This document shows positions 2,962 through 20,116 of a stretch of DNA of 41,336 nucleotides, piece after piece. Each line of letters opens with the position of its first letter. Position 1 is the first letter of the stretch. Origin of the DNA: an uncultured bacterium (GTDB taxonomy: Bacteria; Cyanobacteriota; Vampirovibrionia; Gastranaerophilales; Gastranaerophilaceae). Position numbers and translations under genes: made by a program. The notes under the pieces were generated by a model, which searched no databases, was not told the origin of the DNA, and saw only the letters and a list, made by a program, of their open reading frames with translations. The stretch covers positions 1 to 41,336 of the forward strand of contig CASFGU010000053.1 of the NCBI GenBank assembly GCA_949294395.1, written 5' to 3'.

Positions 2962-3954
2962 TTATTTCATAATTTTATATTTTAATTTTGCACACAGCAT
3001 TTTTGTCTTTAATGTGTAGTAATTATCCTTGAGTAAAGGCTTGAAATATTTCCACCAGCCGTCAGGATAATTTTTCTTTAAATGCTCAAGCGTTTTTATG
3101 TATGCGTTATAATAATCTGGTTTAATAACTTTATCAAATCTGCCGAGCCAGGAGGTCGCTTTGGCAAAATATTTATCTATAAAAATTGTTTTGTATTCGT
3201 CTATTTTGCCGAGGTTAACCAGAAGTTCTTCTATTCCTTCAATTACAAAAAGCGGCGAAAAACTTTTTCGTTTCTTTTCTGTCATTGCTGAATTCGGACG
3301 ATTTTTTCTGTAACAGTACAAACATTCATCAAGCACCGATATTCTTTCTGCCGTAATCATTGCATGAAAAAAAGGAAGCTGATCCTGACCGACAGGAATT
3401 GTCTGGAATTGTATATTATTTTTTGTCAAGAATTCATGTTTGTATAATTTTGTCCAGGTTGTGGACGGAAATTTAAAAATGTCCTCTTTTACATCTTTGC
3501 ATGAAAAAACCTTATTTAAATATTTTTTTGGAAGGTATTTTAAACTGTAGCCGCCTTTTGTAATGTGTTCTTTCCCGTTAGATACCCTGCAGGAATAACC
3601 GCCGAAAATCAGCATATCAAGATTTTCACTTTTTGCTTTTTCAAATATTTTTAAAAGCACTCCGGAATTTTGAAGCCAGTCATCAGGATCTACAAAGTAA
3701 ATGTATTCGCCCTGTGCAAGTTTAAGCCCGGCGTTACGGGCAATTCCGACCCCTTCATTTTTTTTGTTTATAATAGTGAATCTGTTGTCAGATGAAGCGT
3801 ATTTGTTTAATAAATCAAGAGAGTTGTCTGTGGAACCGTCATTAATGCAGATAACTTCTATATCGGACAGCGTCTGCGATAAAATGCTTTCCATACATCT
3901 GTCCAGATATTTTTCAACATTATAACAAGGTATAATAATGGATATTTTAGGCAT
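2962..3954 (-). CDS. Family 2 glycosyltransferase
   Basis: A 330-residue GT-A fold enzyme expected to move a sugar from a nucleotide sugar to a cell-surface glycan. The N-terminus has the GT2 signature PKISIIIPCYNVEKYL. NDGSTDN follows at ~38-44, KNEGVGIARNAG at ~65-76, and the metal-binding DxD-type motif VDPDDW at ~88-93. The C-terminal half is variable, as usual for capsule/LPS transferases, and ends basic. Three in-frame starts (GTG, ATG, ATG) lie at 3960-3952; GGAG at 3961-3964 is best spaced for the third, so I use 3954. It lies 38 bp after the methyltransferase gene on the same strand, but shared function is unlikely. Donor and acceptor cannot be predicted. Confidence 0.85.
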   Translation of the reverse strand: MPKISIIIPCYNVEKYLDRCMESILSQTLSDIEVICINDGSTDNSLDLLNKYASSDNRFTIINKKNEGVGIARNAGLKLAQGEYIYFVDPDDWLQNSGVLLKIFEKAKSENLDMLIFGGYSCRVSNGKEHITKGGYSLKYLPKKYLNKVFSCKDVKEDIFKFPSTTWTKLYKHEFLTKNNIQFQTIPVGQDQLPFFHAMITAERISVLDECLYCYRKNRPNSAMTEKKRKSFSPLFVIEGIEELLVNLGKIDEYKTIFIDKYFAKATSWLGRFDKVIKPDYYNAYIKTLEHLKKNYPDGWWKYFKPLLKDNYYTLKTKMLCAKLKYKIMK

Positions 3955-3992
3955 CATCACTCTCCGGAAAAATTATAACATAAAAATTTAAT

Positions 3993-4883
3993 TTAGAATA
4001 AAACCAGCTGTTTATCTTTATCGCAGGTAGTCTTATTATAGTTTTTTACAGTTTTTCTGAAATTGTAAATCAGTGCTTCGGTTATTGCGTTGCGGTTTTT
4101 CTCCTGTGCTCCGACAAAATAAAAATGTTCTATTTCTTCAATATTAAACTCTTTCCAGATTTTTTCAATGTATGTATTTTCTCTGAAGCTGTTTCTAACC
4201 CATGTTGACAAAATAAATTGTGCCTGTGTAGTTTTTAACAATTGATAAAGACAGTTTTCGTTTTCAGCGTTCCAGTCGTTATAATAACTTGAATGTCTGT
4301 CTATATACGGAGGGTCACAATAAATAAAGTCGTTTTTTCCGGCGGCTTCAATTAAATTTTCATAAGATGTATTTATAAAACTATACTGTTTTGTCTGAAT
4401 TATTTGCTGTACATTTTTAACCTGATTAATAATTTTTGTTATGTAAGCTTGAGCAAAACGGTTTGGTTTTTTACAAAATGGAACATTAAATTCTCCCTTG
4501 CTGTTAAACCTCATCATTCCGTTAAAGCAGGCTCTGTTCAAGAATATAAAATCGTAGGAATCAGGTTTCTTATTAAATCTGGTTCTAACTTCTTTATAGT
4601 AATCATCTGCACCTTCAAGAAGTTTCACGGCCTCAGATTGCAGAAATTTATTCAGTTTTTCCGGAGTAATTATATTATTTTTTAAATCATTGTAAAAGTT
4701 GATTAGATGAGGATTTGTATCTCCAAAGATAGCTTTTTCGGGCAGAATATTGAATCCGACAACTCCTGAGCCCATAAAGGGTTCATACCAGATACCGTTA
4801 AAGTCCGGCAGCAGATTTTTAATGTATTCAATTAATTTAGTTTTAATTCCCTGACATTTTATCGGCGGAATATATTTTACCAT
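3993..4883 (-). CDS. EcoRV-type N6-adenine DNA methyltransferase
   Basis: A 296-residue D12/Dam-class (alpha) adenine methyltransferase that should protect the site cut by the endonuclease just upstream. AdoMet motif I is FMGSG at 36-40 and catalytic motif IV is DPPY at 190-193. Segments such as PPIKCQGIKTKL (6-17), GDTNPHLINFYN (54-65), FNSKGEFNVPFCKKPNRFAQ (126-145) and FYFVGAQEKNR near the C-terminus match M.EcoRV closely as I recall it, well beyond general Dam similarity. The start ATG at 4883 follows the endonuclease stop by 3 nt, so translation may be coupled. GATATC with methylation of the first A is inferred from homology. Confidence 0.88.
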   Translation of the reverse strand: MVKYIPPIKCQGIKTKLIEYIKNLLPDFNGIWYEPFMGSGVVGFNILPEKAIFGDTNPHLINFYNDLKNNIITPEKLNKFLQSEAVKLLEGADDYYKEVRTRFNKKPDSYDFIFLNRACFNGMMRFNSKGEFNVPFCKKPNRFAQAYITKIINQVKNVQQIIQTKQYSFINTSYENLIEAAGKNDFIYCDPPYIDRHSSYYNDWNAENENCLYQLLKTTQAQFILSTWVRNSFRENTYIEKIWKEFNIEEIEHFYFVGAQEKNRNAITEALIYNFRKTVKNYNKTTCDKDKQLVLF

Positions 4884-4886
4884 TAT

Positions 4887-5681
4887 CTACTCGAGCCCTT
4901 TATACTTTAGAAAATCTTTTAATTTTGTAATCTTTTTAGTTTTGCCGTCTTTACAAGGAACATGGATTTTGCCGTAATTCATCCAGTAATCATCAAATAT
5001 ATCTTCTCCGTATTTAGCAAAAGTTCCGTTTCCTTTGATTATATCGGAAATTTTATTGATACTCCCGATATTTGCAGTATTCCCGCTGCCGCTTCTATCG
5101 CTTGCAATCTGCCATTTTTCAGTAAAGAAAAATTCAATATCTTTAATTACAGAAGGAATTGTCAATATATTATCTAAAGAATACCTTTTGAACTCATCAC
5201 CTGTTTTTATTCTTGTGTATATTATACCCAGACAATAATGCGCTTTGTAGTCTTTGTATGGGAATTGTATATTTTTAGTTGAAGTCCGCTCACAAAAATA
5301 TTCACCGTGCGAGCCTAACGTGAAACCGTTGCAGTTATTTTTTGATTTTCTGTAAGTTGATTTAAAATCTACGGCAAACTTTATTGCAGCATTCTGTTTA
5401 TTTACAAACGAAATATCCGGATAATAGTTCTGACACGACGGAAGTATTATATTATATCCTATTTCCTGTGCAAATTGATAGATTAGAGGGAAAATATGTA
5501 TTTCTAATATTTTAGAGATAATTTTTGTATCATCAGAGATTGTGTAAATATTTTTATCCTTATCGATAAATCCCTTTATATTCCAATTATTTAATTCATC
5601 ACAGACATGAGAGTTCAAAGTTTTTATAAAACTTTGAAAACAGCTGCTGAATTGCTCTTTTATAATAATTTCTTCCGCCAT
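4887..5681 (-). CDS. EcoRV-like type II restriction endonuclease
   Basis: A 264-residue PD-(D/E)xK nuclease. With the start at 5681 the catalytic residues are Asp89 (in QNYYPD), Asp105 and Lys107 (in AVDFK), with the same 16-residue gap as Asp74/Asp90/Lys92 of R.EcoRV. The DNA-reading R-loop GSGNTANIGS (198-207) matches EcoRV's GSGNTTNIGS, and the Q-loop Gln is conserved in QNYYPD. The site is therefore probably GATATC with a blunt cut. An in-frame ATG at 5723 exists, but a -10-like TATTAT 6 nt upstream of the 5681 ATG and the length of EcoRV (~245 aa) favour 5681. First gene of the two-gene R-M operon; no controller gene is visible. Confidence 0.87.
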   Translation of the reverse strand: MAEEIIIKEQFSSCFQSFIKTLNSHVCDELNNWNIKGFIDKDKNIYTISDDTKIISKILEIHIFPLIYQFAQEIGYNIILPSCQNYYPDISFVNKQNAAIKFAVDFKSTYRKSKNNCNGFTLGSHGEYFCERTSTKNIQFPYKDYKAHYCLGIIYTRIKTGDEFKRYSLDNILTIPSVIKDIEFFFTEKWQIASDRSGSGNTANIGSINKISDIIKGNGTFAKYGEDIFDDYWMNYGKIHVPCKDGKTKKITKLKDFLKYKGLE

Positions 5682-5687
5682 AACTTT

Positions 5688-5715
5688 ATAATAGCATAAA
5701 ATTGGCTGCTCACAA
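5688..5715 (-). promoter_or_regulatory. Candidate promoter of the R-M operon (leaderless)
   Basis: On the minus strand TTGTGA (5710-5715) and TATTAT (5688-5693) are 16 bp apart. Only 6 nt separate the -10 from ATG 5681, so the transcript would start at or next to the start codon. No Shine-Dalgarno sequence precedes the gene, which fits a leaderless mRNA. Confidence 0.4.
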
Positions 5716-5716
5716 C

Positions 5717-5767
5717 TCACCATAACTTGGAACTTATATATAAGTCACCGTAACTTTTTGTGACGGT
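5717..5767. promoter_or_regulatory. Palindrome and 12-bp direct repeats upstream of the R-M genes
   Basis: A perfect 14-bp palindrome ACTTATATATAAGT (5732-5745) is bracketed by two 12-bp direct repeats with one mismatch, TCACCATAACTT (5717-5728) and TCACCGTAACTT (5745-5756). A weak ACCGT/ACGGT stem (5747-5767) lies next to the flgC stop and might slow readthrough from the flagellar genes. Placement just upstream of the restriction promoter suggests an operator, and the palindrome recalls the C-boxes of controller proteins. Confidence 0.35.
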
Positions 5768-5771
5768 TTGA

Positions 5772-6215
5772 TTATCTGCCGATTTCTACAGCTTTTAAAG
5801 CCATTGATTTAGAGATGTTTACGAGTGCAAGGTTCGCTTCATAAGCGCGCTGAGCAAGAATTGCATCTGCCATTTCAACCATCGGGTTTACGTTTGATGC
5901 CCGTATGTAACCGTTTTCATCTGCGTCCGGATGCCCGGGTTTGTAGATTTTTTCGCCGAGTGTCGGGTCTTCTACACAGCCATTAAATACTACACCGCCC
6001 TGAAGATACGGAAGCGTACCAACTCCGAATACATCTTCTTTCATTGCATTCATTAACCCGTGAAACGATATGTCCTCTGTGGCATTTAAAACAGGAATGC
6101 GTCTTACATAATTAGGCGTATCTACGTTCGCCATGTTTTTTGAATGAACGTCAAGCCGCAGGCTGTGTGTTCGAAGTGCGCGTTCGCCTATATTCATTGA
6201 TTCCAGTATACTCAT
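5772..6215 (-). CDS. flgC: Flagellar basal-body rod protein FlgC
   Basis: 147 residues, usual FlgC size (~135-150). FlgC is one of the proximal rod subunits linking the MS ring to the distal rod in the periplasm. The N-terminal rod signature is HSKNMANVDTPNYVRR (about 24-39). NVNPMVEMADAILAQRAYEANLALVNISK near the C-terminus is the FlgC-typical end, both halves forming the terminal helices that coil together (the peptide here spans roughly 108-136). The start ATG at 6215 is preceded by AGGAGCGAAAAT, an ideal ribosome binding site. Last gene of the four-gene flagellar run, 25 bp after flgB. fliE, the usual next gene, is absent; the R-M system follows instead. Confidence 0.93.
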   Translation of the reverse strand: MSILESMNIGERALRTHSLRLDVHSKNMANVDTPNYVRRIPVLNATEDISFHGLMNAMKEDVFGVGTLPYLQGGVVFNGCVEDPTLGEKIYKPGHPDADENGYIRASNVNPMVEMADAILAQRAYEANLALVNISKSMALKAVEIGR

Positions 6216-6240
6216 ATTTTCGCTCCTGTTTTATAAAAAA

Positions 6241-6588
6241 TTACTTACCAACGTTTATAACTGTTTTCATTTCGGTAATTATGTTTGACATCCTTCTTGT
6301 TGCCATTGTGTATAGGATTGCGTTATTTTGAAGTTCCATAAGTTCTTTATCCGCCCTTATTTCTTCATTAAACCTCTGTTCAATAACAGCAGAAGGACCA
6401 AGCCTTTCGGAAAGTTTTGTTTCGAGAGGGCTGTTCATTGTGCCTAAATATTCTGAAAAATCAATATCGCGTCTGACATAGCCTGGAGTGTTCATATTAG
6501 CAAGGTTTGAACCCAAAGCTACCTGCCTTTGCGATACAAGATCCATCATTAATGAAACTTTTCCCATGCTGTCCAGCGGTGTAAACAT
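6241..6588 (-). CDS. flgB: Flagellar basal-body rod protein FlgB
   Basis: 115 residues, slightly short for FlgB (~120-140). The N-terminal motif GSNLANMNTPGYVRRDIDF (27-45) is the rod-protein signature, and the C-terminal region NAILYTMATRRMSNIITEMK forms the second terminal helix. FlgB is a proximal rod subunit placed at the base of the flagellar axis with FlgC. AAGGAAAATT precedes the ATG at 6588. It sits between the FlgG-like gene and flgC on the same strand with small gaps, so one transcript is likely. Adjacent flgB-flgC is the normal arrangement, which strengthens both calls. Confidence 0.92.
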   Translation of the reverse strand: MFTPLDSMGKVSLMMDLVSQRQVALGSNLANMNTPGYVRRDIDFSEYLGTMNSPLETKLSERLGPSAVIEQRFNEEIRADKELMELQNNAILYTMATRRMSNIITEMKTVINVGK

Positions 6589-6643
6589 AATTTTCCTTTC
6601 TTATTTAATCAGCCGATAAGGCTTTTTAGACTGCTACCGGTTG

Positions 6644-7357
6644 TTATTCTCTGATATTAATCGATTTGTTGTACATATCGTCAATAACTTTCATCATTCT
6701 TGTGCTGGCAAGCATAGAAGCATTCAGCCTCAGCATATCGCTTACCGAGTCATAAATATTTGTGTTGGAATTTTCCAGATTATTCTGTGCAAAGCACTGA
6801 TGTTCTTTGACAAGAATTGCATCACCTGATTCTTCGGTCGGAACCATTTTGTTCATGTCGCCCTGTTCTAGCCCTTCCGGATTTGCAAACCTTACAAGCG
6901 GAATTGTTCCGAGTTTACGCGGGGCTGCATCTACGGCATCATAAGCTATAACTTCGCCGTTCGGTTTTATCTGAAACTTGTAGCAATTTGTAGGAATTTT
7001 TATTCCTTCTCCGACAATCCAGTCGTCATTTGTAACCAGATAGCCATCTTTTCCCTGCTTAAAAGCCCCGTCACGGGTGTAGGCAACTTCTCCTGCCGGA
7101 GAAAATACCGGAATAAAACCCGGCCCTGTAATTGCAACATCATAAGGGTTGCTTGTAATCTGGACTGAGCCCTGCTTGTAGTCAGTTCTGAGGGCGCCTG
7201 TGAGGTAGCCGTCCTCTTTCAGCATCTGTTCAAATCTTACGGCTTTATAGCCACGGGTATTAAAGTTTGCAAGGTTATTGGCAACATAACCCAGTTTGTC
7301 CCACTGGTTGGTTACGTTGTTAACACTTTTTCTGATTATTCCCTGAAGATTTTCCAT
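6644..7357 (-). CDS. Flagellar rod/hook-basal body protein, FlgG-like
   Basis: 237 residues of the FlgF/FlgG/FlgE family. The N-terminal helix ends in the signature ANNLANFNTRGYKAVRFEQ (about 27-45). A central variable region contains DVAITGPGFIPV and AYTRDGAFKQGKDGYLVTN, typical of the FlgG/FlgF core. The end has QNNLENSNTNIYDSVSDMLR and a terminal coil (MLASTRMMKVIDDMYNK). FlgG is the distal rod; FlgF is a minor proximal rod protein. At 237 aa it is shorter than a standard FlgG (~260). Which of the two family genes here is FlgG and which FlgF is not certain; this one carries the better-conserved termini. AAGGATTAAATAT precedes the ATG. Confidence 0.8.
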   Translation of the reverse strand: MENLQGIIRKSVNNVTNQWDKLGYVANNLANFNTRGYKAVRFEQMLKEDGYLTGALRTDYKQGSVQITSNPYDVAITGPGFIPVFSPAGEVAYTRDGAFKQGKDGYLVTNDDWIVGEGIKIPTNCYKFQIKPNGEVIAYDAVDAAPRKLGTIPLVRFANPEGLEQGDMNKMVPTEESGDAILVKEHQCFAQNNLENSNTNIYDSVSDMLRLNASMLASTRMMKVIDDMYNKSINIRE

Positions 7358-7373
7358 ATATTTAATCCTTTAC

Positions 7374-8072
7374 TTATGAGGTTGAACTCAGCTGTGATAT
7401 TGCTTTTTGAAGGTTCTGATTTTGAATCATAAAAAGCTGCCTGTTTGCTTCAAAGTTTCTGATTACAGGCATTAGCGAAATAAATTCATTCTGCAGCGAA
7501 ACGTTTGAGTATTCGTTGTAACCCTGTTTGACTTTCGGCGTCATAACGAGTGCTCCGTTATTATCAACAACGCCGATTGTAGCTACCGGCTCAAGCTTGT
7601 TGGTTTTGACATTGTACACACTGAGCAGTCCGGAATCGTCTACTGTAATCTTTTTCAAATCATCGGGTACAACATGAAGTTTTATCGGAACACCTGCGTT
7701 TGAAAGCACAAGGTGATCTTCCAGTGTCAGAAGATTACCTTCCTTATCAATTTTAAATCTGCCGTCGCGGGTGAGTTTAACTCCTTCATCGCTCTGAGTC
7801 TGGAAATAACCTTTTGTTGCAATAGCCAGATCCAACGGGTTTCCTGTCATCATAATACGTCCGACTTTATCGTCAGAGGTTTGCGAAAGCCCGTGTATCC
7901 CGAGGAATTCAGTAAATGACGATACAACGGGTTCCTGTCTTTGATAGCCGACTTTGTCAAATCCGTTAATATTTTCATTAGTCATAGCCATTAGCTGGCT
8001 TTGAACCTGCATTGCTCGGATTGATGTATTAATTCCGTTTTCAAGAAATGTAACTCTGCCGTTGATTATCAT
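7374..8072 (-). CDS. Flagellar rod/hook-basal body protein, FlgF-like
   Basis: 232 residues, first gene of the flagellar run and 16 bp ahead of the FlgG-like gene. Family features: an N-terminal helix ending in a weakened signature (MTNENINGFDKVGYQRQEP), the core LDLAIATKGYFQTQ...KLTRDGRFKIDKEGNLLT, and a C-terminal coil NVSLQNEFISLMPVIRNFEANRQLF. The degenerate N-terminal motif and smaller size suggest FlgF or a Bacillus FlhO-like equivalent rather than FlgG. It should form part of the rod. AGAGGTAGTTTAA precedes the ATG at 8072; the promoter should lie in 8073-8200, but I see no convincing flagellar sigma-28 site there. Confidence 0.78.
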   Translation of the reverse strand: MIINGRVTFLENGINTSIRAMQVQSQLMAMTNENINGFDKVGYQRQEPVVSSFTEFLGIHGLSQTSDDKVGRIMMTGNPLDLAIATKGYFQTQSDEGVKLTRDGRFKIDKEGNLLTLEDHLVLSNAGVPIKLHVVPDDLKKITVDDSGLLSVYNVKTNKLEPVATIGVVDNNGALVMTPKVKQGYNEYSNVSLQNEFISLMPVIRNFEANRQLFMIQNQNLQKAISQLSSTS

Positions 8073-19126: not shown

Positions 19127-20116
19127 CTATTTAGAAAAGCCATCCGGATGGTGTTTATGCCATTTCCAGGCTGTTGCGATAATTTCTTCAATATCAGCGT
19201 ACTGCGGTTTCCAGCCGAGGACAGATTTTGACTTTTCGCTTGATGCGATAAGCTGTGCGGGATCTCCTGCTCTTCTAGGAGAAATTACAGCCGGAACAGG
19301 ATGTCCTGTAACTTTCCGTGCTGTTTCTATGACTTCTTTTACAGTAAACCCAACACCGTTTCCGAGGTTAAATATATCGCTGGAATTTCCTTTCATGAGA
19401 TAATCAACCGCAAGAATATGCGCCTGCGCTAAATCGGTTACGTGAATATAATCTCTGACGCAGGTGCCGTCTTTTGTAGGATAGTCATCCCCGAAAATGC
19501 AAACCTCTTTTCTTTTCCCGTTTGGAACCTGTAGAATAATCGGTATAAGATGAGATTCCGGATTGTGTGCTTCTCCTATTTTTCCAGAAACATGCGCCCC
19601 GCAAGCGTTAAAATATCTCAGAGAAACATACCTGAGATTGTGTGCTCCGCTCACCCACTTAAACATTTTTTCCATAGACAGTTTTGTTTCTCCGTAAGTG
19701 TTTGTAGGCTCGGTTCTGTCAGCTTCAAGTATCGGAATATTTTCAGGCTCGCCGTAAACAGCTGCTGTTGAGGAGAATACTATTTTATCTATCCCGTTTT
19801 CAACCATTGATTTTAGCAGAACCATTGTGCCATAAAGGTTGTTATCGTAGTATTTCAGAGGGTCTGTCATACTTTCGCCGACAAGAGAGTTTGCCGCAAA
19901 ATGTATTACCGCGTCAATTTTTTCTTTCTTAAAAATTTCATCCAGAAAACTTTTATCTCTGATATCACCTTTATAAAATTCGGCTTTCGGGTGAACGGCT
20001 TCAATATGTCCGGTTTGAAGATTGTCTGCAACAATGACATCCTCTCCTCTGTCTATTAATTCGTAAACCGTATGTGAACCTATATATCCTGCTCCGCCTA
20101 AAATAAGAATTGTCAT
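19127..20116 (-). CDS. galE: UDP-glucose 4-epimerase
   Basis: 329 residues, extended short-chain dehydrogenase. It interconverts UDP-glucose and UDP-galactose (some members also the N-acetyl forms) with bound NAD. GGAGYIGSH (7-15) binds NAD; SST at 115-117 and YGETK at 141-145 give the Ser/Thr-Tyr-Lys triad. YFNACGAH...PESHLIP and RDYIHVTDLAQAH are GalE-type substrate and C-domain motifs. GGAGAG precedes ATG 20116. It stands alone and probably supplies galactose for LPS or surface polysaccharide. Confidence 0.95.
   Translation of the reverse strand: MTILILGGAGYIGSHTVYELIDRGEDVIVADNLQTGHIEAVHPKAEFYKGDIRDKSFLDEIFKKEKIDAVIHFAANSLVGESMTDPLKYYDNNLYGTMVLLKSMVENGIDKIVFSSTAAVYGEPENIPILEADRTEPTNTYGETKLSMEKMFKWVSGAHNLRYVSLRYFNACGAHVSGKIGEAHNPESHLIPIILQVPNGKRKEVCIFGDDYPTKDGTCVRDYIHVTDLAQAHILAVDYLMKGNSSDIFNLGNGVGFTVKEVIETARKVTGHPVPAVISPRRAGDPAQLIASSEKSKSVLGWKPQYADIEEIIATAWKWHKHHPDGFSK

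Follow-up and report, generated by a model that had tools for sequence, protein, structure and literature searches.

Two adjacent genes on the reverse strand at positions 3993–5681 of the window (the whole stretch of 41,336 nucleotides analysed here) very probably form an orthodox Type IIP restriction-modification (R-M) system of the EcoRV family, one that is specific for GATATC and has long been active in its host, a gut member of the Gastranaerophilales, a non-photosynthetic lineage related to cyanobacteria. Both reading frames are intact where the first-pass annotation had placed them, with the endonuclease (R) gene followed in tandem by the methylase (M) gene after a gap of 3 nt (Table 1); separate endonuclease and methylase genes lying side by side are the mark of an orthodox Type II system. 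The endonuclease would have 278 aa if it began at an upstream ATG that lies in frame at 5723; the start at 5681 agrees with the family alignment.

Table 1 Features of the R-M locus (window positions).
Feature	Position	Strand	Basis
R gene: EcoRV-family Type II restriction endonuclease, 264 aa	4887..5681	-	PF09233 E = 1.1e-111, PDB EcoRV, AlphaFold model
M gene: D12-class (Dam/M.EcoRV-like) N6-adenine DNA methyltransferase, 296 aa	3993..4883	-	PF02086, TIGR00571, identity to pLG13 methylase
PD-D-x-K active site D89, D105, K107 (EcoRV D74, D90, K92)	5361..5417	-	Alignment
Recognition loop G198-S-G-N-T-A-N204 (EcoRV 182-188 GSGNTTN)	5070..5090	-	Alignment, codons read
Q-loop Q84-N85-Y86-Y87 (EcoRV Q69-N70-H71-Y72)	5421..5432	-	Alignment
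Methylase AdoMet-binding motif EPFMGSG	4764..4784	-	Aligns with EPFMGTG of pLG13 methylase
Methylase catalytic motif DPPY	4305..4316	-	Aligns with DPPY of pLG13 methylase
Inserted R-M cassette, between flagellar rod gene and family-2 glycosyltransferase (GT2) gene	3988..5771	-	Congener comparison
Candidate R gene promoter TTGTGA-16-TATTAT	5688..5715	-	Weak consensus match

We found the expected EcoRV similarity by profile search: the endonuclease matched Pfam Endonuc-EcoRV (PF09233) with 372.6 bits against a cut-off of 25, and an E-value of 1.1e-111 across the full profile (positions 2–244 of 244) places this family match far above chance. In the PDB the enzyme matched EcoRV itself (E about 5e-43), to which it is 36% identical. 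The residues kept (EcoRV numbering) are T37, K38, E45, Q69, N70, D74, D90, K92, T94, K119, G182–T186 and N188; in EcoRV-type enzymes, E45 is accessory to the catalytic residues and K38 enters the minor groove. The proposed catalytic residues D89, D105 and K107 do align with the EcoRV triad and are invariant across 24 relatives. The recognition loop (R-loop), described earlier as a near-identical GSGNTANIGS, differs from GSGNTTNIGS of EcoRV by the single change T187A, and most relatives also have alanine there; the Q-loop, likewise thought to be conserved, keeps both Q69 and N70. Apart from T187A, the base-contact residues of the R-loop (182–188) and Q-loop (69–70), loops whose roles in EcoRV have been described (PMC4081073), are thus identical. 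Overlaying the AlphaFold model (pLDDT 86.6) on EcoRV-DNA, a check that had been suggested for this protein, revealed the EcoRV fold (1suz_A; VIA Z 24.0, rmsd 2.5 Å, 236 residues). The top structural matches were all EcoRV (Z 22–24), the next family being R.SwaI at Z 11.6.

The methylase was matched by PF02086 (E = 1.5e-43) and TIGR00571 (203 bits), and its best PADLOC model was a Type II methylase (380 bits). Its nearest relation is M.EcoRV, with the EPFxGxG and DPPY motifs kept and 55% identity over 280 aa (325 bits) to the methylase that accompanies EcoRV on pLG13, which bears out the EcoRV-like character first assigned to it; scores against DpnII (PDB) and Dam were 91 and 65 bits, respectively, from another program than the pLG13 score and only roughly comparable with it.

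The system almost certainly recognises GATATC, as the first-pass annotation predicted, judging from profile, structure, residues, methylase and genome site depletion, the last of which provides strong indirect support. The host genome (G000, 2.1 Mb) contains 34 GATATC sites and that of its sister carrier (G008) 36, against 362–757 in 11 congeners without the R-M genes, a 17–20-fold depletion by density in both carriers; since these are sister species with one common insertion, this within-genus contrast counts as one evolutionary event. The reversed control, CTATAG, was present in normal numbers (232 and 268 in the carriers, 106–505 in the congeners). Ranked by depletion in carriers relative to five non-carriers, GATATC came first among 2,080 hexamer classes, with observed/expected ratios of 0.11 and 0.13 versus 0.73–1.68 (all-hexamer statistics come from samples of 200–440 kb per genome, GATATC counts from whole genomes). 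When non-carrier GATATC sites were aligned to carrier DNA, 4 of 88 (4.5%) were intact in the carriers, most control palindromes being retained at 17–35%, TGTACA at 12% and CTATAG at 7% (6.9%); the commonest replacements of lost sites were AATATC and GATATT, both outer-base transitions. The window itself holds two GATATC sites, at 19961 and 28345, and not the single one (19961) counted earlier, versus about 13 expected.

Depletion of this size is what site avoidance by a long-resident Type II system looks like: host genomes avoid the sites of roughly half the orthodox Type II systems, and do so more strongly the longer a system has been resident (PMC4687349). Among 40 unrelated carriers, about 16 had GATATC below 0.35 of a simple expectation and many others did not, several, including UBA947 (L040), showing no depletion; this partial avoidance agrees with the published proportion of roughly one half (PMC4687349). 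One tandem EcoRV-like carrier, a member of the Dehalococcoidia (G126, L088), shows extreme avoidance, with one GATATC site in 3.4 Mb.

No other palindrome considered as the true target tracked the carriers better than GATATC; CATATG and ATGCAT were also low. Strong depletion in both carriers was also seen, in the genome samples, for ATGCAT, CATATG and words that contain GGWCC, which suggests further past or present R-M systems, and the congener G010 had zero counts of GTATAC, TGCGCA, AGCGCT and GGCGCC in a 200 kb sample, pointing to other R-M specificities there. GATATC was also rare (39–160 sites) in four related genomes without a PF09233 enzyme (G095, with 39 sites, G023, G085 and G031). Methylase remnants were considered as the cause in GATATC-poor genomes and set aside; G023, G036, G085 and G093 carry distant Dam-like genes only (26–33% identity), and no Dam-like remnant was found in G095. 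The four genomes poor in GATATC but without PF09233 perhaps bear traces of lost systems, or an enzyme of some other family acts at GATATC there.

The remaining host sites are unevenly distributed, 10 of the 34 lying within the first 40 kb of one 110-kb contig (G000:C44:1-40000; L030, L031). In this segment a phage gene for virion morphogenesis stands together with Mu-like transposition genes and two Type III R-M systems that resemble each other. With 244 GATATC sites per Mb it comes close to non-carriers, whereas the rest of the genome has 12 per Mb (Poisson P about 1e-10). No GATATC was listed in the other 70 kb of the contig, which assigns the contig to this host and suggests that the island was acquired recently; the island's transposition segment is nearly absent from G008. 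If cutting is active, the island sites must be methylated.

The pair lies between flagellar rod/hook genes upstream (5772–8072, the rod gene at 5772–6215) and the GT2 gene downstream (2962–3960). In four congeners (G001, G006, G007 and G010) the flagellar gene borders directly on the glycosyltransferase gene and the R-M genes are absent, whereas G008 carries the cassette at the identical place, with 93% nucleotide identity over the whole 5.1-kb stretch; PF09233 is encoded in 2 of 99 related genomes, those of the window and of G008. The R-M genes fill the insertion: a search of the cassette for a controller protein or other cargo found none, and no target-site duplications or long flanking repeats were convincing. 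The proximity to flagellar genes noted by the first-pass annotation stands as a description of the neighbours, while no functional link to them was found and the insertion site is common to two species only.

Taken together with what is known of EcoRV, the pair would work as follows. It very probably entered a common ancestor of the two Gastranaerophilales species between the flagellar and glycosyltransferase genes. Two endonuclease copies would bind unmethylated GATATC, the R-loop reading the outer bases and the centre being bent, and by homology would cut both strands to leave blunt GAT/ATC ends; the methylase would convert a GATATC adenine to N6-methyladenine and so protect the host. Phages would be the presumed target of this defence. 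The host genome has lost about 95% of its GATATC sites, very probably through long activity of the system.

An EcoRV-fold enzyme with some other recognition sequence, the GATATC depletion stemming from another R-M system or from composition, could be argued from the replacement of T187 by alanine in the loop, from the rarity of ATGCAT, CATATG and GGWCC words in both carriers, and from those carriers elsewhere whose GATATC is not depleted. We consider this extremely unlikely: every other residue compared in the recognition loop matches EcoRV, the partner methylase is nearest to M.EcoRV and not to general Dam enzymes, depletion of the same site recurs in unrelated carriers, and GATATC had been predicted before counting and then ranked first among the 2,080 words. 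It is also very unlikely, in our estimation, that the system was once active and is now silent, with the methylase alone, or neither enzyme, working today. The ten sites persisting in the mobile island fit either methylation or lost cutting, but beyond the island GATATC remains extremely depleted, and two species about 7% apart in DNA at this locus have unbroken R and M genes with every catalytic residue in place, which indicates that both frames have been maintained. The system is ordinary and intact, and probably active.

A further reading concerns what the system is kept for. It may persist mainly as a selfish, addictive element and not for phage defence, a possibility that we take seriously but hold doubtful; a compact two-gene cassette inserted without other cargo would suit it, as would tree neighbours in other phyla that mark transfer between lineages, and post-segregational killing by Type II systems has been reviewed (PMC3874152). 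The biochemistry would be identical to that of a defence system, so that sequence alone cannot separate the two, and selfish persistence is compatible with the GATATC-specific EcoRV-family system favoured here.

Regarding regulation, R also precedes M in EcoRI and Eco29I, where control comes from promoters and antisense RNAs located within R (PMC3874152). We found 17 promoter-like matches versus 10.9 expected by chance, those inside R barely above chance; given these numbers, control by internal promoters is put forward here as a suggestion. A palindromic 14-bp sequence ahead of R (ACTTATATATAAGT, about 5732–5745) was rejected as an operator, the stretch being absent from the otherwise matching G008 locus. 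That this tandem, controller-less branch is regulated unlike E. coli EcoRV, with flagellar read-through driving R and promoters inside R driving M in this host, seems unlikely; if true, restriction strength would track flagellar gene expression.

These results add a well-supported EcoRV-like system for gut Gastranaerophilales, and the two carriers, eleven non-carriers and empty insertion sites amount to a neat natural experiment on how restriction sites are lost. As a practical hint, DNA for introduction into the host should be GATATC-free or methylated at GATATC.

The belief that few EcoRV-like systems exist outside Proteobacteria did not survive a scan of GTDB species genomes, which confirmed close relatives in at least 172. 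The best 80 of these span many phyla, including Poribacteria, Chloroflexota, Bacteroidota, Ignavibacteriota, Nitrospirota, Acidobacteriota, Actinomycetota, Spirochaetota, Campylobacterota and others; in nearly all 80 loci a same-strand methylase comes right after R, mostly overlapping it, and none showed a divergent methylase; nearly always the controller gene of E. coli EcoRV is missing too. Tandem pairs of this family thus occur widely among bacterial phyla. In a tree, the window endonuclease groups with those of G008, an Alphaproteobacterium MAG, another cyanobacterial MAG and gastric Helicobacter; with neighbours in other phyla, this tree indicates transfer between lineages. The haloarchaeal Halogranum tailed virus 1 (L010) also encodes a short endonuclease of the EcoRV family (about 27% identity), with no methylase like that of the window found within 3 kb.

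Among known enzymes, R.SwaI, HincII and NlaIV share the general fold class at about 10% sequence identity, their structural scores (VIA Z 8–12) lying well below those of the EcoRV matches (Z 22–24). The EcoRV system of E. coli plasmid pLG13 (NC_005019) has the endonuclease family, fold, catalytic triad, Q-loop and R-loop in common with the present one, although its loop has T187 where alanine stands here, and the endonucleases are 36% and the methylases 55% identical. On pLG13 a controller-type HTH gene overlaps R and M is divergent, and on E. coli, Geobacillus, Acinetobacter and Lactobacillaceae plasmids the endonuclease is accompanied by an HTH gene and by a methylase gene that points the other way; unlike such C-protein-controlled operons, a flagellar gene directly precedes R in the window and M follows downstream in tandem without a controller. 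Close counterparts are the tandem EcoRV-like pairs of diverse phyla, for example those of UBA947 (L040), Rhodothermus pRMAR01 (L005), Antarctobacter pSMS3-1 (L004) and Helicobacter mehlei (L062), in which R precedes M on one strand, the two genes overlap or almost touch, the loop reads GSGNTANIGS and the endonucleases are 55–65% identical to that of the window. Such pairs stand in other genomic surroundings, and some of their hosts do not avoid GATATC; the system described here is an ordinary member of this already known family.
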